This document shows, in pieces, positions 17,785-60,302 of a DNA stretch of 64,000 nt; position 1 is the stretch's first letter, and the number at the start of each line of letters is the position of its first letter. The notes beneath the pieces are model-generated. The model saw nothing but the letters and a program-made list of their open reading frames with translations, had not been told where the DNA came from and searched no databases. The stretch is from assembly GCA_039096225.1 (NCBI GenBank), contig JBBPEB010000013.1, forward strand, positions 1,142,001 to 1,206,000. Reading direction: 5' to 3'. Source of the stretch: Blastocystis sp. Blastoise. Taxonomy: Eukaryota; Sar; Bigyra; Opalinata; Blastocystidae. A program made the translations under genes and the position numbers.

Positions 17785-20466
17785 CTATATTATGTGAATT
17801 ATGAATATAATACTTATAATATACATACGCTCTAAAACAGTAGTTATAAGTGATGAAGAATCAATGATATCAGAAGTTAATCCAATTGTCATTTGGGTTG
17901 TTGGATTAATAGTGTTTCTGTATTTGTTTTTTATATACACGAGATGACTGAAACCGCTCTCACAGAGATATGAAGTTGCAAAGGGAAGAAAACATTTCTT
18001 GGCTATATCATATAATAATGGAAAACGACTCTTATGGCTTATATAGAACTCATCTATTGGTACGTTATTAAATTCTTCTCTACATGTTTTATCAGCAAGT
18101 AAACAGAAATACTCTTCTTTAACATGAAACTCCATTTTATTTTCGTCAGCTACTTTTGAAAATGGATTAGTAATCCAATATAAAGAATGATCAATAAGAT
18201 TAGTTGTTGGTGTATTTTTTGGTTTTTTTATGTTACTATTCGTTTTCTTCTGCTTTTTATTCTTTTGTACTTCTCCTTGATTTGTATTATTACTTATTTC
18301 ATTTGGAATGATTGCCCCAAGAGTTATTATACAATTGATATTAGCCTGAATTATATTTATATTACTAATGATTCCATTGTATTGTCCTTGAATACTACTA
18401 TTAGGGAAATTATTAAGAACACCAGAAATACTACCTAAAGTGTATCCATATACTAAATATGGAAAGTCAATTCTAATCGTTACTTGAGTTTCTATTAATT
18501 GCTGAGTAACTATGTCAACATAGGTTATTAAGCCATTTACAACTCCATTTGGAGATACGCAACCTTGTAATGATCCAAGAATATTAAATTGGTTTGATAC
18601 TACTGATGTATTGTTATTAACATTACTATTCACTTCATGAGATATATTTGATGTATTATGTGTATTTTCTTGGTCTATTAAATATTCATTAAGGTCTTGA
18701 AGATACGATTCATCACTACCAATATAATTTAGTATTTCTGGGAAATAATTCAGTAAATTACGTCGAAGAGTTATTAGATGATTTTTGATATAAAATATGA
18801 TTGAATTAATATCAAGCTTGGTTGTAGATACATAATCCTTAAGTTTCGTAAATGATGAATAATCGTTATTATTTATTAGTCTTTCTAATCTCAACGATAA
18901 TTTTATAAATAAATCCTTCATAATGTCTATTAACCCAAATATATATCTATGCTGTCCTTGCATTGATTTATTACAATCATAGAATAAACTGGTAACATCC
19001 TCAAGGTATAACATTGAAGCTATGAAGTTAGTATCAATAATGGTGTTATATAAGTCCTTCTTTTCTTTATCCTTTTTTATTACTAGTGTTATTCCATTTC
19101 TAAGTAAATTAAATCTTTTAATTGATGAATGGCATGAAAGCCATCTTGTAGGGCAATAAAGGAGAAGTTTATAACTTCTAATATTTTTTTCCTTTTTTTC
19201 TTCCTTCTTATCATTACTATAAACTTCATGAATATTATTATCTATATTATTATCTGTATCAGATGTATCTAAAAGGGATTCAACTACTTTATTATATTCT
19301 ATCTCTAAAGAAGATATATTATTAGGGGAATCAGGTATGTTATCTTGAGGAGAGAAGATAGAAGAGGTTAATGAATATTCATTATCAATATTGTAATTAT
19401 TGGATTCGTCTTGTCTAACAGCAGACTTCTTTATATATGAAATTATCTCAACAGCACTTTTGAATATATTAGTGAAGTATTTTGGTAAACAGTTTACACA
19501 GAGTTCTTCTCTATGAAGAAAACAGTGGATGAACATACAATTCTTATTCTTCTCTAGTACTCGTGTTTTGAAGGAGTTTTTGTCTCCATTCATATTCGAA
19601 GCACCGTCAAAAGTAGCTGATACGCAATTATTCCACAGAAGGTTATTATTATTAAAGAAATTATCTACCATGTTAAATATATTATCACCTGTTTTGGAAC
19701 TAATCTGAAAAATACTTAAAAATGATTCAGTAAACTTTTTATTATATTCGTATCTAGCATAAACGAGTAAATAGGATTTCATTTCTATGTCAGTTGACTC
19801 GTCAAGCTGAATAGAAAATGATCCTGATTGTCTTATCCTATTTATTACTTCTTGTTGAATTGTCAAAGCAATTTCATCACTTTTTCTTTTGATACTGCTT
19901 GAGGATAACGGAAGATTAGAAAGGACTTTGACATTCTTTAACCTTTCATATTCTTCAATAATAGGTTTAACTAATTTTTCTCCAGTTCTGTAGCTGTATC
20001 CATTCTTTGAAATGGAGTAGGCGATGAAATATGAAAGCTTACTGGATAAATCTGAAAAGCTAAAGAGAGAATTTGAGTATTCTGTGTTTTCATTATGATC
20101 TTTTAAGAGTTCTTGAATGTCATCATATGTGTATTTGCTTAACCCATGTTTATTCTTGAAATGAGTGAAGAGTTTTGAGGCTTCATAACCTTTACACGTG
20201 AGAGTAGACTCACAGATTAAACAAAAATAGGAGTTTTTTGTTAATTTTTTAAATCCATAAACAACTGGATTGGCATTATATCTTTTAACTCCTTCTTTTA
20301 CTTCACTATAATATTTGGATTTAGGATTAATATCTGGTTTATTATTCGTTTCTTCTGTAATTATGTCATCATCTTTTTTTTTTCGTCTGTTGTAGACTTG
20401 TCAATCTATATATATATATATATATTACTATTAATATACTTGTAATTTTTTAAAGTACTGTTCCAT
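17785..20466 (-). mobile_element. hAT-superfamily transposase gene (ZBED-like)
   Basis: A cut-and-paste DNA transposase of the hAT superfamily, closest in style to the ZBED5/SCAND3 group. An N-terminal BED-type zinc finger (FCLICESTLTCKG..FTHFKNKHG, about 20172-20225) is followed by the RNase-H-like core (SFSIQLDESTDIEMKSYLLV; FDGASNMNG; HCFLHREELCVNCLP; CPTRWLS) and a C-terminal hATC dimerisation region (FLPFATSYLCESGFS). The uninterrupted frame from 17785 runs up to about 20395. A likely first exon with ATG at 20466 (MEQYFKKLQ) is joined through a 34-nt TA intron (20406-20439). That junction leads to a frame mismatch at an A10 run (20384-20393 region, minus strand), so one base appears to be missing. 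Activity cannot be judged; the left terminal repeat is not found. Confidence 0.8.
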
Positions 20467-22611: not shown

Positions 22612-23329
22612 TGGCTACAGATACTGTTAGTATTAAAACTGTATGGTTAAGAGAACTATATTATTTTATGATTCATATATAGGGAGACTTTGAATGGACT
22701 GCTGATGACTTAGGTTGTCCAGGACCACAAAACAAAGAAGCTTTGTTTGATTGGCAAAAGGATTACAATGGCGTTAATGCATTAGAGCGCTTCGGAGGCA
22801 TTGCCGGATTGGTCAAATCATTAAAAACAGACACGGAAAAGGTGAGTTGTTGATTGTCAAGTAAATTTGTTTAGGGTCTTACAACCGAACAAGCCGAGGA
22901 TGAGGAGCGTCTGCAAACGTATGGGAGCAATTACCAGCCACCCAAGAAGTCCAAGAACTATATGCAATTGGTTCTTGAAGAATTCAAAGAATTAACAATG
23001 ATTATTCTTACTATTGCTGGTGTTGTGTCTCTTGCTTTGGGTATCGCGACTGACCCAGAAGGAACAGGTATGATTATAAATAAATACAACTTGGAGTTAA
23101 TAAATAAATATATTTCTTTTATAGGTTGGATTGAAGGATTCTCTATTATTCTTGCCGTACTTATTTGTGTAAACGTTGGTGCTGTTAACAATTATCAAAA
23201 AGAAAAACAATTCCAACAGTTAAATGAAGCTAATGAAAGAGAATTTGTTAAAGTATATATATATTGACTTTATAATATATATAAAGTTGATATTTTATAA
23301 ATAATAATAATAAAAATCATAATAATAAT

Positions 23330-23367
<38 letters not shown>

Positions 23368-26300
23368 TATATATAATATAATATATAGGTGACTCGTGAT
23401 GGTAAGATCGTTGAGATTTTGATATATGATATAGTAGTAGGTGATATAGTTCATATAAATCAGGGTGATAGTATACCATGTGATGGTATATTTATAGCGG
23501 GTAATAAGTTGTCTATAAATGAGAGTAAGTTAACAGGAGAGAGTGATAATGTGATAAAGAATGAGAAAGATCCATTTTTGATATCTTCAACAGAATGTTT
23601 TGAAGGTAGTTGTATAATGTTAGTAACATCAGTAGGAAAGAATAGTGTATTTGGTCGTATGAAATTATTAATAGAAGGTCAAGGTGAAGAACAAACGCCA
23701 CTTCAATTAAAATTAGAAGATTTAACTAAATTTTTATCTACTATTGGTTTAGTAACATGTGGTGTTACTTTATTAGGTATGCTTATTATATATGGTGTAA
23801 GGTATGTAAGATAGAATATATAATAATAATAATAATAAATATATATAAATATATATATATAGATTAGGAAATGAATATGCTGATAAAGAATTTGAATGGA
23901 CAGCAAAGATTGCAAGTGATATATTAGAAATAGTTATTACAGCTGTATCAATGTTAGTTTTAGCTATTCCTGAAGGTTTACCTCTTGCTGTTACTCTTGC
24001 TCTTGCTTATTCTGTTAAACAAATGATGAAAGATAATAATTTAGTATATAAATATAATAAAAATAATAATAATATAATATATAATAAATATAAATATACT
24101 ATAGGTTCGTCATTTAAGTGCTTGTGAAACAATGGGTGGAGCTACAGCTATTTGTAGTGATAAGACAGGTACATTAACTCAAGGTAAGATGAGTGTAGTT
24201 CAAATATGTGAAATGGATAATATAAATAAGAATTTTCATTATTTAAATGAGAATAAAAGTGGAGAAAAAGAAGAATATGAAGAATTTTTAAATAAATGTA
24301 AGAATTTAGATATAAAATATAAAGAAAAGTTATTAGAATGTTGTATATTAAATAATGATGGTTTTTTAAGTAAAGATGAAGAAGGTGAGATAAAAGGAGT
24401 AGGAAGTCCTTTGGATATAGCTTTAATTCATTGGTGTAATCGTTTAGGTATGAATTATGAAGATATTCGTAAGATGTATCCAAATATGGAAGTAATGAAA
24501 GAAGAAGATCGTAATAGAATAGAGAAAGGTGTGATACGTCATTTTGCTTTTCATAGTAATCGTAAGAGATGTTCTTGTTTAGTTAAATATGATAATAATC
24601 ATTATCGTTTATATGTAAAAGGTGCTCCTGAGATTTTATTAAGATTAAGTGATTATGTAGTAGATAATAAAGATATGTTAACTGAATTAACAGGTGAATT
24701 TGAAGAATGTTCTAATGGAAGTATATTAGGTAATGGAAATCGTCGTGAAATAATGAAAGAGAGTGTATATCCAATGGCTACAAATGCTCTTCGTACATTA
24801 GCTATTGCTTATCGTGATTTTGAGAATATAGAAGATTGGGATGAAATGGTTGAATATGAAGATAAGATGAATATAGGTGTAGGTAAATGTCCAAAGATTG
24901 AAAGTCATTTAATATTATTAGGATTTTTAGGTTTTCAAGATCCTGTTCGTCATGAAGTATATATTATATATTATATTATATATTATATATTATATTATTT
25001 ATTATATAATAATATATAAATAAATAATAATAATATATAATAATAATATATAAATAATAATAATTCTTTATAGGTTCCTCATTCTGTAAGTGTTTGTAAT
25101 CATGCTGGTATTCGTGTTCGTATGGTTACTGGTGATAATGTAGCTACTGCTAAAGTAATTGCTCGTCAATGTAATATATATCATGATAAGCCATGGACTG
25201 ATTCTTATGGTATTACTCATTCTAGTGGTATTTGTTTAATGGGTTCTCAATTCCGAGAAATGGCTGGTGGTTTAGTATTACCTGCTCATTTTTATCATGA
25301 ATGTCATTGTAAAGATTGTTCTGAAGAAGATAATTATATAGAGAATTATATAGTATATAGAGGTCAAGAAAAGACTCCTTATCCAAGTATAATTGGTCAT
25401 AAAATATCTGAATGTGATATTTGGACTCCTGAACGAAAAGCTATGGGTAGAAGTGGTTGTACTAGTGAATGTAAAGAACGTGGTTGTATGTATAGTTGTA
25501 AAGATGCTTATGATGATCGTGAAATAGAGAAATATAAGATTGTTCGTAATCAAGGTAAATTTGATGAGATAATAGATACTTTAGATGTAATGGCTCGTGC
25601 TGCTCCTTCTGATAAACAGATTTTAGTAAGTGGATTAATGGAAAGAGATGAAGTAGTAGCTGTTACTGGTGATGGTACTAATGATGGTCCTGCTTTAGCT
25701 AAATCTAGTGTTGGTTTTGCAATGGGTATTGGTGGTACTTCTGTTGCTAAAGAAGCTTCTGATATTATATTAATGGATGATAATTTTTCTTCAATTGTAA
25801 AAGCTTGTATGTGGGGTAGAAATATATATGAAAATATTCGTAAATTTTTACAATTTCAATTAGTAGTTAGTTATGTAGCTGTATTTTTTGCTTTTATTGC
25901 TTCTATGTGGAAAGGAGAAAGTCCTATTCGTGCTGTTCAAATTTTATGGGTTAATTTAGCTATGGATACTATGGCTGGTTTAGCTTTTACTACAGAGAAA
26001 CCAAATGAGAAATTATTAAAGAAGAAACCTTATGGTAAACGTGAAAGTATTATTGCTCCTATAATGTGGCGTAATATATCTGTATCTGTTGTATATAATA
26101 TAATAATATTATTATTAATTCTTGGTTTTGGTGAAGAATGGTTTGAATTAGAAGGACCTAAAAATGATGGAATTAATGAAAATGGAAATACTTTATATAC
26201 TTTTATTTTCCATGTATTTGTATTATTACATGTATTTAATGAATTAAATTCTCGTTGTATTAATAATGAAAGAAATATATTTACTAATTTTAAAAATGCT

Positions 26301-26861
26301 ATTCCTTTCTTTATTATTGTTCTCTCTTCTATTATTATTCAAATTCTTATTGTTCAATTCACTGGACCTGTATTCTCTGTTAAACCATTATCCTGGAAAC
26401 AACATCTATATGCTATTGCTATTGGATTCACTGAAGTCATTCTCTATCAAATAATCGCTTTCATTCCTTATAAATGTTGTGATAAATCTGAAGAAAAATC
26501 TTCTCATCATTATACCTATCAAACTCCTACTCCTACTCCTTCTGCTACTCCTGCTCCTTATTTCGATACTCAGACTCCTATAACTAACTTTGACAAACAA
26601 ATTGAAATTGAAATGACTAAACTTCAAGTTCCTGTTACTACTACTTCTGTTGCTCCTAAACAAGAAGAAACTTATAATGCTGTAGATCATGTTCATGATA
26701 AACCTGTTGCTAAGACTGATGTTAGTGCTCCTATTCAAGAAAAACCTTCAGGTGCAGTTGATGCTGCTATAACTGAACAATCTAAAGATACTGAAGTTAA
26801 ACCTGTTGAACCTACAAAAGAAAATATCAATTCTGAAATTATAAATAATCAAAGTGCATAA
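22612..26861 (+). CDS. Plasma-membrane-type Ca2+-transporting P-type ATPase, copy 1
   Basis: A P2B-type ATPase that pumps Ca2+ out of the cytosol (plasma membrane or vacuole). Exons: 22612-22641, 22683-22841, 22875-23067, 23125-23252, 23389-23801, 23863-24043, 24115-24956, 25074-26861; all joins keep the frame. Motifs in order: M1-M2, A-domain LTGES, PMCA-type M4 [16 protein letters not shown], phosphorylation site [10 protein letters not shown], nucleotide-binding KGAPE, MVTGDN and [11 protein letters not shown] hinge motifs, then M5-M10. The C-terminal tail is Thr/Pro-rich with no obvious calmodulin-binding helix. The start is chosen because exon 1 ([10 protein letters not shown]) splices in frame to [11 protein letters not shown]. 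From 23389 to about 26440 it is nearly identical to copy 2 (55794-60302, opposite strand). Confidence 0.95.
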
Positions 26862-29560: not shown

Positions 29561-29852
29561 TCTGATAAAATAAAAAAAGTGTGGCAAAAAAAATAAATAT
29601 TAAAAAAAAAATATTATGGAATACAATTATGAAAGAAAAATTAAAAATATAAGAATAATTATGATTATAAAAAGATGAATAAAGATTATGATATGAATAG
29701 ATAATGATTAATTATGAATATGATTATTATTAGTAAAAAATATATAAATATAATAAAAAGAAGAAATAACAAAACAAGAAATGAAGAATGAAATATAATG
29801 AGAAAAAAAATAATAATAATAATTAAAATATATATATATATATATATATTAA

Positions 29853-30415
29853 TTATTTGCCTATTTGTACAGAATTTGTATTTGTGATAGGATTTGCAGT
29901 ATATTCCTAAATAAAAAAAGATGAATAATAATAAAAATAATAAATAGAATAATAAAATAAATAAAAATAAATAAATAAAAATGAATAAAAATAAATAATA
30001 AAAATAAAATAAATAAATACTTGAACCATAGCAATAAGTTTATTAGATCCATTTTGGAATTGTTTAATATCTTCTAAATATAATAATTTCATGACAACAC
30101 AACATTTATTTAACATTTCATTATTTGTATTAAATCCAAGAGGATATTGTTTATAATTCCATTCGATGATTTGAGATTCATTTTGATTTGAATTTATAGG
30201 AAAGCCATTAGGATAACGAGATTTCAGTTCATTTTTGATTTGCTAGTTATAATAATAAATATAAATAAATATAAATAAAATATAATAAATAGAATAATAA
30301 TATACAGTAATAATAGAGAGTAAATCAATATCTTCAGAATAATTAATATTTAATAAATTACATATAGAATGTATTGTTTCTCGATTTATTTCAATCTCTA
30401 TATTATTATTATTAT

Positions 30416-30448
<33 letters not shown>

Positions 30449-30464
30449 TACAGTAATAATAATC

Positions 30465-30501
<37 letters not shown>

Positions 30502-31106
30502 TAATAAATACTTTTCATTATATTTTCTTTATTAGGTATAACATTATTATATAAATCAGCTATATAATAATAAATAGATTAATAATAATAATAATAATAA
30601 TATAAATATTTACCTTTATCTTCATATTCAATACTAATAGCATAAGATGTTATCCATAATAATATCTTTATCTTATTTTCTTCACAATAAGATTCTTTTA
30701 TAGGACAAGCCAAATTATATAAATATTTATATAATTCTTTGTTCCAATTACTATTATTACATCGAATTCCTATTCTTTCTTCAGGAGGATACCTTTAAAT
30801 ATATTTATATTTATTATTATTATTATAATATACATTCTTATAATTGTATCTTCTAACCATGATATAATATTCACAACAATCTGTTTATCTAAAAAATATT
30901 ATTATTTTTATTATTATAATAAAAAATAAAATATAAATAAATTTAATAAATATAATAAATATAATAAATATAATAAATATAAATAAACATAAATAAATAT
31001 AATAAATATAATAAATCATACTTAATAAATTTTGATTTTCTGCAAAAGGACAACCTAAGATATTTAATCGTTTCTTTATTGCATTAATTGAATTATTTAT
31101 TGACAT
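29853..31106 (-). CDS. RTRAF: RTRAF / hCLE (C14orf166 family), left copy
   Basis: RNA transcription, translation and transport factor; in animals a subunit of the tRNA-splicing ligase complex and a cap-binding partner. Recognised from the N-terminal part (IISWLEDTIIRMYPPEERIG, NSNWNKELYKYLYNLACPIK, IEYEDKADLYNNVIP) and the C-terminal part (QYPLGFNTNNEMLNKCCVVM, LLYLEDIKQFQNGSNKLIAM). Exons begin 31106-31022, then 30888-30834 and 30792 onward. Further introns fall after EYEDK, NIMK, SIIT and IAMVQ. It has a 41-nt intron at 30793-30833 that the right copy lacks, and an intact GT donor at 31021-31020. Divergently arranged with the small membrane-protein gene at 31386, about 280 nt away. Confidence 0.88.
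30793..30833 (-). other. 41-nt intron present only in the left RTRAF copy
   Basis: On the minus strand AAGAAT is followed by GTATATTATAAT...TTTAAAG and then GTATCC. The right copy reads AAGAATGTATCC without interruption (about 37114-37125). GTAT occurs at both edges and may be a 4-nt target duplication. Splicing gives IIRMYPPEE in both copies. Confidence 0.9.
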
Positions 31107-31385
31107 AATAATTAAATAATAATAAAAAGAAGAAATAAAGAAACAAATAACGAAACAAACTGAAAATGAAAGTAAAACATCTGAATATATTTTAAGAATA
31201 TATTAGTCATTGAAACTGGATTATTTTTGTTGTTTATTTTTTCTTTTCTTTTTTGTTGTTAAAGAGAAAATGAAAATTTCTGATAGAAATTTCTTTATTA
31301 TAGTATTCTTTTCTTTTTAGTAAAAGAAGGATTGATTTTTTTGAATTTGATTTGATTTCTATTTAATATATTAAATATAATACGA

Positions 31386-31720
31386 ATGAGTCGACAAATC
31401 AATTGTTTTGGTTTAATATCTTCTTTAATATTATTTTATATAATAATATATTGTTTATTATATGGTTCTTCTCTAGATTATTCTGTAAGTTTGTTTAATT
31501 ATTGTAATATTTATTATTGTAATATTTAATATATATGATATAGGGTATGTTACGATCATTTGAAAATGAAGAAAAACGTGAAGTAAATATATTTATTTTT
31601 TCTTTATTATGAATATTATGTTGATAAAATATATATTTATTGATTTATTAAATTATATAGGCTCTTGAAAAAGCTCAAAAAATAATTATGAATAAGTTAG
31701 ATAATTTAAATAATAAATAA
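31386..31720 (+). CDS. Small single-pass membrane protein, left copy
   Basis: Three exons (31386-31484, 31544-31582, 31661-31720) encode about 65 residues: MSRQINCF, then a hydrophobic helix (GLISSLILFYIIIYCLLYG), then a charged helical tail (SFENEEKREALEKAQKIIMN) ending DNLNNK. I do not recognise the family. The layout, one membrane helix plus an amphipathic K/E tail, is typical of small ER or mitochondrial membrane subunits. An identical copy lies at 36252-36596. It shares a ~280-nt intergenic region with the divergent RTRAF gene. Confidence 0.65.
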
Positions 31721-32203
31721 TATTGATTCAAAAATATTTTTATTTTATTTTTTTTTAAATTTAAAAATTTAATTTAATTTTTATATTAATAATATATATA
31801 TATATATATATTATTATTATTTTTTTTTTTTATTGCTGTTTTTAACTAATATTTGCTTGCTTACTATTATTATTATTATCTCTCTTTTTTTTATTTTATT
31901 TTATTTTTTATTTATTTATTTCTAATTTTTAATATTTTATTTTAATTATATTATATTTTGAAAAGAAGAAATGAAATATATTTATTTTATTTTTTATTTT
32001 TTATTTTTATTTTGTAAAAGAAGAAATGAAATTTATTTTATGTTATTTTTTATTTATTTTGTAAAAGAAGAAATGAAACATAATTATAATTTTAACCATT
32101 TATTTAACACAAAACATCTTATCACAATCAAATGAATGCACATTCAAAGAAATATTCATATAATAACACACATTCTAAAACTATTGAAGATAAATATAAT
32201 TTT

Positions 32204-33467
32204 ATTTAAATATATATAAAAATTATTATGTTTTTAAAAATGTTGATACTTAAGAAATGTTATTGTATAATACTATTATACTTCTTTGTTAATAAAATAG
32301 AACACTGATTTTAATAACTGAATATTTTTTACTCTTTAAATACCTAAAACAAAGTTGCTTACAATATATTGAGTATATATTATACAGTGTTTGAATAGAA
32401 TAAGAAGAAGGAAAAGTAATTCAGAAAACTCATGATGAATAAAACATTATAATGTGGTTCTATATACAAACTTTGTAGTTGTAACTCTCTCCATGTGTAA
32501 AACAACACAATAAAGAAGTATAAACTTATAGTTTCTAATGAATAATAGATAACATCATATGAATATGTTTATTTTGGTTCATAAATATTAAATATCATCT
32601 GAATGTATTCCATGCAATAAACATTAAGATAAAGTATTTTTAGAGAACTTAGAATATGAATTAGCTTCATTCTTTTCAACTAACAATGATTCTGTGGATA
32701 AATGATTTTTCTAAAGATATCAATAAATATATACTGCTATAATAACTAATTGTGAATTAAAATCTGAAAAAAGTAAGATAGAGGCTTTTCATTGCAATAA
32801 TATGGTTCTTTTTAATTAATCTATTACAATCCAATACGATACATTTCTCCATAGCATTGCACAATACGATACAGTTTCTATTACAAATAAAAACATTAAA
32901 TGATTGTAAGAAAGTTTGTTTTATTGAAGCTCCTTTAGATACTATAGTTCTGACATCCAATCATATAGTATATCATTCTATACTTATAAGATAAGTACCA
33001 ATCAAGCTAAATTGAACAATTAAGATAGTATTGATAAAAATATAACTCCAGAAAGCCTATATAATAAAAATAGGTATATCTCCAGACTGAATAAAACGGT
33101 AAATAGTATTCAGTATACTGCTATTCTTTAAATAGGATACCTGTGCTACTAATTTTGTCTCATACAAGTCTATCTCTTGAATATTCACATGTCACTTGCT
33201 TATCTTATTTGCTTAGTGATTTCTATTTGAACCAACCATTTATTCTTATGATAAAAAATGATTTTAAAAACTATTTGAAAATGTTTCTTTTGTCCACTTT
33301 TTGTTTTTTCCCTTTGAAACACAGTATAATCACGGTTTTCGAAAACAACTTGAATAATTCTCATTCGCAAAAAATTTGCTAAATTAAATTTCCGTGGGTA
33401 TTTTTCAAAAACTACAGATTTTCCAAATTTAGACAAAGCACTTTTTTATATCTACTTGGTTGCGTTC
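32204..33467. other. Spacer between the inverted arms, upstream of GT49
   Basis: No gene supported; the short frames at 32757-32960 (-) and 33143-33436 (both strands) lack motifs. A TCACGG element (about 33331-33336) lies about 135 nt before the GT49 start and resembles the core of the eL30/proteasome motif. Confidence 0.4.
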
Positions 33468-34660
33468 ATGTTGACATTAATTACACAAAAGATTAACCAT
33501 AATATGAAGAGATATTTAAACATCCTTCTTTATGTGGAAACTGTTGTGCTGATTGTTGTCGTGTTATCAGTTGCATTGATAGCTAGAGGAGGCAGTTACA
33601 AAAATGGATTTGTATTATTTTCTTTTTCTTTTGACATTGTTTAATTTATTCTTTATGATAGATCCTCAGAGGAAATCCAACAAAAAATATAGTTGGAATG
33701 ACTAAGTACGGGTTTGTAAGCAGTATCCCTGCCACAGAAGGCAATTATGATGTCACTTTGATCACACAAACTTCGTATTTTTAAAAGACTCTTATTTCGA
33801 ATACAAATATTTATATTTAGAACACTAAGACTGTTTTATTTTCCTTATCTTTTATCAAGATGGTCAGGGTATGTTATTATTTAATAGAATTTTATTGTTT
33901 TACTCAATAGTCCTATGGTTGCGGCAATTTTCCTGAAGAAAGCAGATGAAGAGGAGTTTAAAGAATTTATTAATGCTGTTTCATTATCACAACGTCTTCA
34001 TTTAGTTCGTTACCGTCCTGTCGATGAGTCAATTTATCCTTATAATAAATTACGTAATATAGCTGTAGCTCGTGTTACTACTTCTCATTTTTGGGTCGCA
34101 GATATGGACATGTGGCCAGCAGGTATCTATTTATATCATTATTCTAATCTATTATGTTTAATTATATTCAATTATATTCAATTATATTCAATTATATTCA
34201 ATTGTATACAATTATATTCAATTATATACAATTATATTCAATTATATATAATTATATTTAATTATATATAATTGTATATATAATATATATAGAGAATGTA
34301 TATGAAACCCTTCGTAGTTTGCCTGAACAAGTATTATCAAATGATTTCATGGCGGTTATTGTACCCGCCTTTGAATATAAAAAACTTCCTAATTGCGATG
34401 ATTTTGTACCTTGTGTAAAGAAGTAAATCATTCTATATTATATATTATATTAAGATAAACACTTATATTCTTAATACTATCTTTGTTTATTTATCGATAC
34501 ATATATTTATTTCTATAAGTATAATGATGTATGTATATAAATAGAGTAATTCCTCATGTCCCTCGTAATCGTCACGAACTCACTGGATGTATATCTCAAC
34601 AAATGTGTCAACCCTTCAGACCTGGAGCTTGGGTCCATGTATATATATATATATATATAT

Positions 34661-34711
<51 letters not shown>

Positions 34712-35406
34712 TTTTATTTATTTATTTATTTATTTTATTTATCTTCATTGAATAGAATCATATACAATTACATTATTATTTTATCTCTTACTTAAATGTA
34801 CATATATCAATAGGATTATTTAACAGAGGATTGGTATAGAGAGGATTATCATAATCCTCTTCTTATGGTCCCTTGCTTCAAATCTGTCAAACAAGAACCG
34901 TATATATATATATTATTACATATAATCATAAGAATAATACATTTATATTATAATCATATATAATATACGTCTATATGTATATAGTTATGTGATGGTGAAG
35001 CGTTCTGTATATTTACCGCCATTTGACGAGCGGTTTATTAATTACGGTAAAGATAAGATTAGTTGGATTGAACATCTACGATATAGTGGGTATTTATTTG
35101 GTGTTTTGAAGGATGCCTTTGCTATTGATATTCCACATCCAAGGTATATTCATATAAGAACTGTTAGTATTATTAGCATTTATTATATAATTATTATTAT
35201 ATATTACTGCAGTCATTATTAATTAGCTATGTATATATATATATAGATCCGAATTAGCAAAGGTATTTTATAATAAGTTATTCACAGAGGGTGGAATGTC
35301 TATAGATATGAATATTTTATGGTTGGATTTCGTAAAGGAATTACATGAGAAATATCCAGATAGAAGTGTCACTTATCTCTGCGATAAGCTAGGAAAAGAT
35401 TATTAA
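33468..35406 (+). CDS. LARGE/B4GAT1-type glycosyltransferase (GT49 family)
   Basis: Golgi type II membrane glycosyltransferase; the family adds glucuronic acid or xylose-glucuronate units. The N-terminus has a short cytosolic part and a signal anchor (LLYVETVVLIVVVLSVALIA). The lumenal catalytic part shows LLSRWSGPMVAAIFLKKADE, YPYNKLRNIAVARVTTSHFW, the metal-binding DMD (WVADMDMWPA), and the family end motif FDERFINYGKDKISWIEHLR..GYLFGVLKDAFAIDIPHP. About seven short AT-rich introns interrupt it, including one with (TTTA)n at about 34640-34810. The start is set at the first ATG (33468); MKRYLNIL at about 33504 is an alternative. It is the only gene in the spacer of the inverted duplication. 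Confidence 0.88.
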
Positions 35407-35615
35407 TATAATTATTTAACATTATATATATAAATACTTATTTTATTGCTAATATTTCTTATTATATCTTTTATCTTCCATATTTTGTTTAATATTAGAA
35501 GATATATAGTTCTACCTTTTAATTCTTATATGTATAAGTAGTTTCTTATATACTATTTCTTTTTTAATATTACTACTTATTCTGATTATTATATTATATA
35601 TTTTCCTTTTAAAAG

Positions 35616-35650
<35 letters not shown>

Positions 35651-35770
35651 CGATAGTATTAAAACTTTACAGATCTTGATTTATTAATATTTAAATTCTG
35701 TATGTAATATTATTTATATATAAAAACAATTCTATATCTTCTTATTCTTTTTGGCATATTTTTATATTAT
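35407..35770. other. 3' flank of GT49 up to the right inverted arm
   Basis: AT-rich with a short (TA)n run near 35618-35650. Nothing else supported. Confidence 0.5.
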
Positions 35771-36251
35771 AAATTATATTTATCTTCAATAGTTTTAGAA
35801 TGTGTGTTATTATATGAATATTTCTTTGAATGTGCATTCATTTGATTGTGATAAGATGTTTTGTGTTAAATAAATGGTTAAAATTATAATTATGTTTCAT
35901 TTCTTCTTTTACAAAATAAATAAAAAATAACATAAAATAAATTTCATTTCTTCTTTTACAAAATAAAAATAAAAAATAAAAAATAAAATAAATATATTTC
36001 ATTTCTTCTTTTCAAAATATAATATAATTAAAATAAAATATTAAAAATTAGAAATAAATAAATAAAAAATAAAATAAAATAAAAAAAAGAGAGATAATAA
36101 TAATAATAGTAAGCAAGCAAATATTAGTTAAAAACAGCAATAAAAAAAAAAATAATAATAATATATATATATATATATATTATTAATATAAAAATTAAAT
36201 TAAATTTTTAAATTTAAAAAAAAATAAAATAAAAATATTTTTGAATCAATA

Positions 36252-36596
36252 TTATTTATTATTTAAATTATCTAACTTATTCATAATTATTTTTTGAGCT
36301 TTTTCAAGAGCCTATATAATTTAATAAATCAATAAATATATATTTTATCAACATAATATTCATAATAAAGAAAAAATAAATATATTTACTTCACGTTTTT
36401 CTTCATTTTCAAATGATCGTAACATACCCTATATCATATATATTAAATATTACAATAATAAATATTACAATAATTAAACAAACTTACAGAATAATCTAGA
36501 GAAGAACCATATAATAAACAATATATTATTATATAAAATAATATTAAAGAAGATATTAAACCAAAACAATTGATTTGTCGACTCATTCGTATTATA
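36252..36596 (-). CDS. Small single-pass membrane protein, right copy
   Basis: Same three-exon gene as at 31386-31720, on the opposite strand: ATG at 36596, TAA at 36252-36254, same predicted protein. Function not recognised. Confidence 0.63.
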
Positions 36597-36865
36597 TTTA
36601 ATATATTAAATAGAAATCAAATCAAATTCAAAAAAATCAATCCTTCTTTTACTAAAAAGAAAAGAATACTATAATAAAGAAATTTCTATCAGAAATTTTC
36701 ATTTTCTCTTTAACAACAAAAAAGAAAAGAAAAAATAAACAACAAAAATAATCCAGTTTCAATGACTAATATATTCTTAAAATATATTCAGATGTTTTAC
36801 TTTCATTTTCAGTTTGTTTCGTTATTTGTTTCTTTATTTCTTCTTTTTATTATTATTTAATTATT

Positions 36866-37475
36866 ATGTCAATAAATAATTCAATTAATGCAATAAAGAA
36901 ACGATTAAATATCTTAGGTTGTCCTTTTGCAGAAAATCAAAATTTATTAAATATGATTTATTATATTTATTATATTTATTTATGTTTATTTATATTTATT
37001 ATATTTATTATATTTATTATATTTATTAAATTTATTTATATTTTATTTTTTATTATAATAATAAAAATAATAATATTTTTTAGATAAACAGATTGTTGTG
37101 AATATTATATCATGGTTAGAAGATACAATTATAAGAATGTATCCTCCTGAAGAAAGAATAGGAATTCGATGTAATAATAGTAATTGGAACAAAGAATTAT
37201 ATAAAGTATTATTATATATTAATATATATATATATTAATATATAATAATAGTATTTATATAATTTGGCTTGTCCTATAAAAGAATCTTATTGTGAAGAAA
37301 ATAAGATAAAGATATTATTATGGATAACATCTTATGCTATTAGTATTGAATATGAAGATAAAGGTAAATATTTATATTATTATTATTATTATTATTAATC
37401 TATTTATTATTATATAGCTGATTTATATAATAATGTTATACCTAATAAAGAAAATATAATGAAAAGTATTTATTA

Positions 37476-37512
<37 letters not shown>

Positions 37513-37528
37513 GATTATTATTACTGTA

Positions 37529-37561
<33 letters not shown>

Positions 37562-38127
37562 ATAATAATAATAATATAGAGATTGAAATAAATCGAGAAA
37601 CAATACATTCTATATGTAATTTATTAAATATTAATTATTCTGAAGATATTGATTTACTCTCTATTATTACTGTATATTATTATTCTATTTATTATATTTT
37701 ATTTATATTTATTTATATTTATTATTATAACTAGCAAATCAAAAATGAACTGAAATCTCGTTATCCTAATGGCTTTCCTATAAATTCAAATCAAAATGAA
37801 TCTCAAATCATCGAATGGAATTATAAACAATATCCTCTTGGATTTAATACAAATAATGAAATGTTAAATAAATGTTGTGTTGTCATGAAATTATTATATT
37901 TAGAAGATATTAAACAATTCCAAAATGGATCTAATAAACTTATTGCTATGGTTCAAGTATTTATTTATTTTATTTTTATTATTTATTTTTATTCATTTTT
38001 ATTTATTTATTTTTATTTATTTTATTATTCTATTTATTATATATATTTTAATTATTATTATTATTTTATTTAGGAATATACTGCAAATCCTATCACAAAT
38101 ACAAATTCTGTACAAATAGGCAAATAA
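36866..38127 (+). CDS. RTRAF: RTRAF / hCLE, right copy (first splice donor mutated)
   Basis: Duplicate of 29853-31106 with almost the same coding sequence. In the first intron the donor is AT instead of GT at 36951-36952 (G to A relative to the left copy); unspliced, the frame runs into a TAG soon after 37080. It lacks the left copy's 41-nt intron but has a 46-nt palindromic intron at 37206-37251, whose removal restores KELYKYLYNLACPIK. It may be a decaying copy or use a non-canonical donor. Confidence 0.75.
37206..37251 (+). other. 46-nt palindromic intron present only in the right RTRAF copy
   Basis: The right copy reads ATAAA-G-[44 nt]-G-TATTTATATAATTTGG; the left copy reads ATAAATATTTATATAATTTGG. 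The 44 nt between the Gs (37207-37250) equal their own reverse complement exactly. The insert has GT..AG ends (GTATTATT...AATAATAG), so splicing restores the uninterrupted sequence. Confidence 0.92.
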
Positions 38128-38558
38128 TTAATAAATAATATAAATATATATATATTTTAATTATTATTATTATTTTTTCTCATTATATTTCATTCTTCAT
38201 TTCTTGTTTTGTTATTTCTTCTTTTTATTATATTTATATATTTTTTACTAATAATAATCATATTCATAATTAATCATTATCTATTCATATCATAATCTTT
38301 ATTCATCTTTTTATAATCATAATTATTCTTATAATTGTATTCTTTTCGCTATATTCATTATTCACTTTTCTATTATATAATTTTATTTAATGTTTATTTA
38401 TATATACAATTTGTGTATATTTATATTGTTAAAACTATTTAAAACAAACATATGCAATATAACATTATAACTATTAAAATAATGAAAATTATAAAGATAA
38501 AGAATATATTATAATACTATATATAAATATATTATGTGTATATTAATAAATAACTTCT

Positions 38559-44366: not shown

Positions 44367-55523
<11,157 letters not shown>

Positions 55524-55793: not shown

Positions 55794-60302
<4,509 letters not shown>

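Follow-up and report, generated by a model that had tools for sequence, protein, structure and literature searches.

Reciprocal presence of two short GT..AG inserts in a near-identical inverted pair of Blastocystis RTRAF genes, one insert being a palindrome within an exonic palindrome

Several kinds of young intron have been described. In Daphnia pulex, neointrons with recent presence/absence variation are short GT..AG segments, mostly without an identifiable source, and internal direct repeats in 61% of 90 neointrons implicate staggered double-strand breaks (PMC4202315). The internally symmetrical (stw)introns of Hypoxylaceae consist of inverted repeats, often leave their terminal Gs unpaired and have no flanking duplication, and break repair has been proposed for them (PMC8469720). 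Introners are young and by definition multi-copy, some families carrying terminal inverted repeats and/or target duplications of 3-9 bp (PMC9860276), while a new nonconventional intron in gapC of Euglena agilis, a strain-level gain with extended direct repeats, has been attributed to break repair (PMC4770533). Imperfect inverted repeats, finally, are the sites of quasipalindrome template-switch mutations, which arise when the template is switched or a hairpin breaks (PMC8604942, PMC7202029, PMC3855049). Here we analyse a stretch of 64,000 nucleotides (the window; C16:1142001-1206000; GC content 23.7%) from the 33.3-Mb, 34-contig assembly of Blastocystis sp. Blastoise, which the taxonomy listing places in Opalinata, Stramenopiles. 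The window contains an inverted duplication with a spacer of ~3.5 kb, each arm of which carries one RTRAF gene and one small two-intron gene, and the two RTRAF copies differ reciprocally by two short inserts with intron ends.

Alignment of the arms placed a 41-nt insert in the left RTRAF copy only and a 46-nt insert in the right copy only, each cleanly absent from the opposite arm (Table 1), as a first-pass annotation of the window had noticed. A distance of 6.5 kb separates the occupied site from the empty one, the sequence around both being nearly identical. The annotation's description of arms that hardly differ elsewhere also held: over left-arm positions 29937-32202, a single substitution and a one-base difference in a T run are all that is found besides the inserts. 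Further changes (seven single-base differences and two 3-nt indels) cluster in left 29840-29936, in intron 6 and the sequence just beyond the stop codon, with seven of these items within intron 6 (29917-29936). A 2-nt A-run indel separates the arms at 29803, and the arm ends are unalignable. The annotation took this near-identity as a sign that the changes are young; it fits that view, but may stem either from a young duplication or from gene conversion. Our preferred reading, in which confidence and doubt are about evenly balanced, is that two independent, recent and local insertions, made by break repair or template switching, entered otherwise near-identical arms. In addition to what the annotation had described, this reading draws on the palindromic structure of the 46-mer and a GTAT repeat at the 41-mer; the cluster at intron 6 and the stop codon, and a substitution in the donor of intron 1, are likewise new.

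Once every intron is removed in silico, both copies yield an identical 244-aa protein, which matches PF10036 (RTRAF/RLL) at 144.8 bits over profile positions 2-252 of 253, that is, the full-length domain. In-silico translation with the 46-mer retained stops after 79 aa, and with the 41-mer retained after 67 aa, so both inserts must leave the mRNA if the full protein is to be made. No third RTRAF copy was found anywhere in the 33.3-Mb assembly, and no RTRAF relatives were found in viral contigs.

The 46-mer is a perfect 44-nt palindrome between two Gs, with 22 of 22 pairs formed inside them. It has a single possible placement and no flanking direct repeat, and its insertion point is one base off the centre of a perfect 24-nt palindrome that encodes part of the RTRAF domain. 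Because this exonic palindrome is present in both copies, it is older than the event that separates them. In the window and C16:1-200000 (264 kb together), the core of the 46-mer is the sole perfect 44-nt palindrome once simple (TA)n-like runs are set aside, and ten Markov controls (five for each of the two sequences) contained none. Perfect 24-nt palindromes outside simple sequence number seven in the window, a count that includes the 46-mer's own centre and paired arms, compared with one in each of five controls; the positional chance of an insert falling at such a centre is then ~7 x 3 / 64000 = 3e-4. Together with the two exon halves, the insert forms a 70-nt quasi-palindrome with a predicted folding energy of -29.2 kcal/mol as RNA (z -5.7) and -18.4 kcal/mol as DNA (z -6.2), with 0/200 shuffles as good in either case, while folding is weak at the empty left site (DNA z -1.45, 12/200 shuffles as good). 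The modelled hairpin would bring the two splice sites next to each other at the foot of its stem, which could help or hinder the spliceosome.

We compared both inserts with candidate introns of this genome, catalogued by scanning the 264 kb for segments of 25-160 nt that run from GT to AG and have coding-like sequence on either side. Non-overlapping candidates numbered 54, while seven control dinucleotide pairs returned 10-21, and chance will therefore account for part of the set. An earlier scan had discriminated poorly, with 51 GT-AG donors where six controls gave 9-28 and AT-AC gave 184, and this one replaced it. Forty-four of the 54 candidates start with GTAT and 49 end in TAG. A GTA donor marks 47 of them; TAG is the acceptor in 44, an in-frame TAG lies 3 or 9 nt upstream in the remaining three, and none needs an AAG-type acceptor. 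The shortest of the 47 is 38 nt. For comparison, the modal intron length in Blastocystis ST1, ST4 and ST7 is reported as 30 nt, and 98.3% of ST1 introns as GT-AG (PMC5608401). Several candidates in C16:1-200000 (for example at C16:112-130 kb, minus strand) consist almost wholly of G(TA)nG microsatellite, and for this reason slippage of intron length is likely to be common in this genome. Palindromic GT..AG segments number one in the window, the 46-mer itself, against none in eight Markov controls, and seven in C16:1-200000 (two nested at one place) against five in total in eight Markov controls. Of four such segments inspected, one would join an open frame: C16:88503-88546 on the minus strand, a 44-nt quasi-palindromic GTAT..ATAG and a candidate second palindromic intron.

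Measured against this catalogue, the annotation's view of both inserts as introns fared unevenly. The 46-mer has the GTAT donor and TAG acceptor of the genome's introns, and its removal restores the 244-aa frame. The 41-mer has the commonest form of donor, GTATAT, but ends in AAAG rather than TAG, whereas the five other introns of the left RTRAF copy and both introns of the small gene all end in TAG. Acceptors further downstream would give products of 53 aa (55 nt) and 238 aa (59 nt, again AAAG), and the nearest downstream TAG (64 nt) a frameshifted product of 50 aa. Since GTAT begins both the 41-mer and the exon that follows, five placements are possible, one of them GT..AG, and two readings fit the segment: 37 nt of filler with a 4-nt target duplication, or sequence that microhomology deletion can remove. 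Its T-over-A skew of -0.16 is the third lowest relative to the 47 GTA-donor introns. The GTAT ends, the AAG and the low skew would be odd in an established intron and ordinary in filler.

The right copy has a difficulty of its own. The sole substitution relative to left 29937-32202 is a G to A change, on the gene strand, of the first base of intron 1, which converts the donor GTATGA to ATATGA; an in-frame alternative donor, GTTTAT, was read by eye 33 nt downstream, a type not catalogued here. Each copy thus has one dubious splice step, and neither can make the full protein from wholly canonical splice sites, because the left copy has the AAG acceptor and the right copy the lost donor. A protein search with RTRAF returned one match, 'hypothetical protein WA158_003994 [Blastocystis sp. 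Blastoise]' (P0001), which represents a cluster of two members, both on one contig. P0001 is 198 aa long, begins MYPPEER and matches PF10036 over profile positions 39-252. It probably annotates the right copy, because its start codon is contiguous only there and is split by the 41-mer in the left copy. An annotation only, it has the 46-mer removed and is missing the first two exons, which would follow from an intron 1 that cannot be joined in the right copy.

Searches of the whole assembly at up to three mismatches found no other copy of the 46-mer and none of the 41-mer. Both inserts are therefore single-copy in 33.3 Mb, and an introner family, with which the annotation had compared them, was rejected. 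In local alignments the 46-mer did not score above shuffles in the 264 kb or in the nearest 18 kb. The 41-mer scored 28.0 in the 264 kb, against a maximum of 27.0 in 12 shuffles; in the nearest 18 kb its score of 24.5 fell inside the range of 40 shuffles (maximum 26.0). Thirty-five one-mismatch matches (one being the segment itself) were found to a 28-nt core of the 41-mer, against seven for the reversed control; this core resembles a common AAT-repeat motif. The 22-nt palindrome arm of the 46-mer has 13 exact matches, two of them the insert itself.

The annotation had also proposed that introns here are gained or lost very fast, which the other duplicates of the region do not bear out. At 98% identity or more, the 264 kb contain three near-identical duplicate pairs, all inverted, and no direct pairs at the same thresholds, tandem arrays aside. 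One is a plasma-membrane-type Ca-ATPase pair (23300-26443 and 56228-59398; 98.3% identical, 18 mismatches, 17 gap openings), which encloses the RTRAF pair non-concentrically; similarity of its right copy fades near the 3' end, at ~56228. Another (C16:38858-45799 and 47123-54070) has 6.9-kb arms that are 99.9% identical and 1.3 kb apart. Intron presence/absence was seen in neither, and one reciprocal case among three pairs gives no rate. Elsewhere in the assembly, two Peptidase C1 genes of equal score, 13 kb apart (C33:1230770-1231408, plus strand, and 1244087-1244725, minus strand), are possibly an inverted pair. At greater divergence, intron content does differ between paralogues in this genome, because an older Ca-ATPase paralogue at C14:379581-381915 (67-87% identity in the main matched blocks) has none of the four introns found in the window copies. 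Its junctions are clean at two of the four and lie within poorly conserved sequence at the other two; it is possibly an old retrocopy.

Reading the changes in the RTRAF pair as gains and the inserts as spliced, we infer the following course. In the right copy, the 24-nt coding palindrome would probably extrude as a hairpin or cruciform, the tip of which would be broken or copied, and repair or template switching would leave palindromic filler, here the 44-nt palindrome with a G at each end. Such filler could be read at once as a canonical intron, because introns here seem to need little beyond G/TAT and TA/G. In the left copy, the 37 nt of AT filler and the 4-nt GTAT direct repeat would be what a repaired staggered break is expected to leave. 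This insertion would supply a good donor and a poor AAG acceptor; because of that acceptor, the 41-mer would be at best a weak newborn intron, and it may harm the left RTRAF copy. Short direct repeats at the ends, the mark of neointrons born by break repair, are present at the 41-mer and absent from the 46-mer.

Several observations weigh against insertion. The genome has only the two RTRAF copies, and a comparison of two does not polarise the change. Exact intron removal would explain the clean edges of the 46-mer without special pleading, and the GTAT repeat suits microhomology deletion equally well. Left unfiltered, the window holds 373 palindrome centres of at least 24 nt, and on this count the positional chance could reach ~2% at most. 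No source was found for the palindrome arm (615 one-mismatch matches against 625 for the reversed control), and pairing of intron ends is not general in the catalogue, 338 of 2000 permutations reaching the observed mean.

Beyond this locus, we propose, very tentatively and with more doubt than conviction, that exonic DNA palindromes may be birthplaces of introns, the hairpin tip breaking or templating palindromic AT filler and the resulting RNA hairpin pairing its own splice sites. No report of intron gain at palindromes or cruciforms appeared among the best-ranked literature matches (12 of 15 and 10 of 63). If the proposal were true, the twin RTRAF genes would offer a before-and-after picture of intron birth, with a repeat-flanked newborn in the sister copy. 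The sources of new introns are usually untraceable, and the palindrome-inside-palindrome signature would point to a testable mechanism and show how little sequence an intron requires in an AT-rich genome.

The best-surviving alternative, possible though doubtful, is that both introns were ancestral to the pair, the right copy losing the 41-mer by deletion across the GTAT repeat and the left copy losing the 46-mer by hairpin-directed deletion or gene conversion from cDNA. Both deletions would be exact at the GT..AG edges, GTAT microhomology suits deletion by end joining, and intron-free copies exist in this genome, as the C14 Ca-ATPase paralogue illustrates at its two clean junctions. Microhomology-mediated intron loss has reportedly been described by van Schendel and Tijsterman in 2013. 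In Dictyostelium, an AT-rich protist genus, precise losses are reported to far exceed gains (PMC4683709), a precedent in favour of loss. Against it, each copy would have lost a single internal intron while neighbouring introns were kept in both, a poor fit to cDNA conversion, the mark of which is the joint loss of adjacent introns. Loss would also demand an exact 46-nt deletion without microhomology, an ancestral 41-mer with an acceptor type needed by none of the 47 catalogued introns, and, as an unlikely coincidence, an ancestral palindromic intron at the centre of a coding palindrome. Should loss be right instead, the pair would exemplify exact, possibly hairpin-guided, loss of single introns.

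Decay of both copies is unlikely. It would make the inserts plain, unspliced sequence, the left copy degenerating through the 41-mer and the right through the dead intron-1 donor and the 46-mer. The ATATGA donor, the missing TAG of the 41-mer with its 50-aa alternative, and P0001 as the sole annotated protein found, with no full-length 244-aa protein among those listed, are consistent with it. Yet the coding sequence beyond the dubious sites is identical and unbroken in both copies, both inserts are GT..AG segments whose removal restores the frame exactly, the assembly has no other RTRAF copy, and P0001, if it comes from the right copy as its start codon suggests, has the 46-mer removed. Less probable still is that near-identical inverted arms misled the assembly or its consensus: all the evidence comes from the assembly and the arm differences are clustered, but intron ends and exact frame effects are not expected of random mis-assembly, and each insert is unique. 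A mobile palindromic intron with terminal inverted repeats, or an introner, is highly improbable, for although the 46-mer combines inverted-repeat structure with intron ends and the GTAT of the 41-mer resembles a target duplication, neither insert has a second copy, the two are unlike each other and the 46-mer lacks a flanking duplication.

Coordinates of the locus are collected in Table 1. The 65-aa product of the small gene has no Pfam match. The spacer holds a Glyco_transf_49-like glycosyltransferase gene (PF13896; 33888-35406, plus strand), and a long open frame at 17785-19782 on the minus strand has a weak hAT transposase dimerisation match, barely above the Pfam cut-off. tRNA and Rfam scans of the window gave no matches.

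Table 1. Features of the inverted RTRAF duplication, in window positions
Feature	Position	Strand	Remark
Left arm, inverted duplication	29636..32217	.	alignable homology ~29648-32202
Right arm, inverted duplication	35756..38345	.	alignable homology ~35771-38333
Left RTRAF gene, ATG to stop	29853..31106	-	in-silico splicing and arm alignment
Left RTRAF introns	30889-31021, 30793-30833 (41-mer), 30560-30613, 30398-30511, 30243-30305, 29907-30020	-	
41-nt insert, GTATAT..AAAG, then exon GTAT (4-nt direct repeat)	30793..30833	-	left copy only
Empty site of the 46-mer, left exon: perfect 24-nt palindrome	30713..30736	.	
Right RTRAF gene, ATG to stop	36866..38127	+	in-silico splicing and arm alignment
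Right RTRAF intron-1 region (donor ATATGA)	36951-37083	+	
G to A (gene strand), first base of intron 1	36951 (right) vs 31021 (left)	+ (right)	arm alignment
Right RTRAF introns	37206-37251 (46-mer), 37364-37417, 37466-37579, 37672-37734, 37957-38073	+	
46-nt insert, GTATTA..ATAG	37206..37251	+	right copy only
70-nt quasi-palindrome, insert between two exon halves	37195..37264	+	right copy
Small two-intron gene, 65 aa	31386..31720	+	in both arms

Set beside the described systems, the inserts differ from introners in having no second copy (PMC9860276). Quasipalindrome mutations share the inverted-repeat setting of the 46-mer, and their summary descriptions draw no connection to introns (PMC8604942, PMC7202029, PMC3855049). 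As in the gapC intron of Euglena agilis, RNA structure would join the intron ends, although that intron has nonconventional borders and the inserts here have U2-type GT..AG ends (PMC4770533). The 46-mer resembles the symmetrical introns of Hypoxylaceae in its long terminal inverted repeat and unpaired terminal Gs; those introns form multi-copy families with repeats of 45-55 nt, whereas the 46-mer occurs once in the assembly, within an exonic palindrome (PMC8469720). Short GT..AG presence/absence and the short direct repeat at the 41-mer recall the neointrons of Daphnia pulex, which are documented by population data and cDNA; ours are known from the DNA of one paralogue pair, and are AT-only inserts of 41 and 46 nt, one a palindrome without a flanking repeat (PMC4202315). 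Daphnia neointrons and Hypoxylaceae symmetrical introns are the closest precedents for this pair of inserts.

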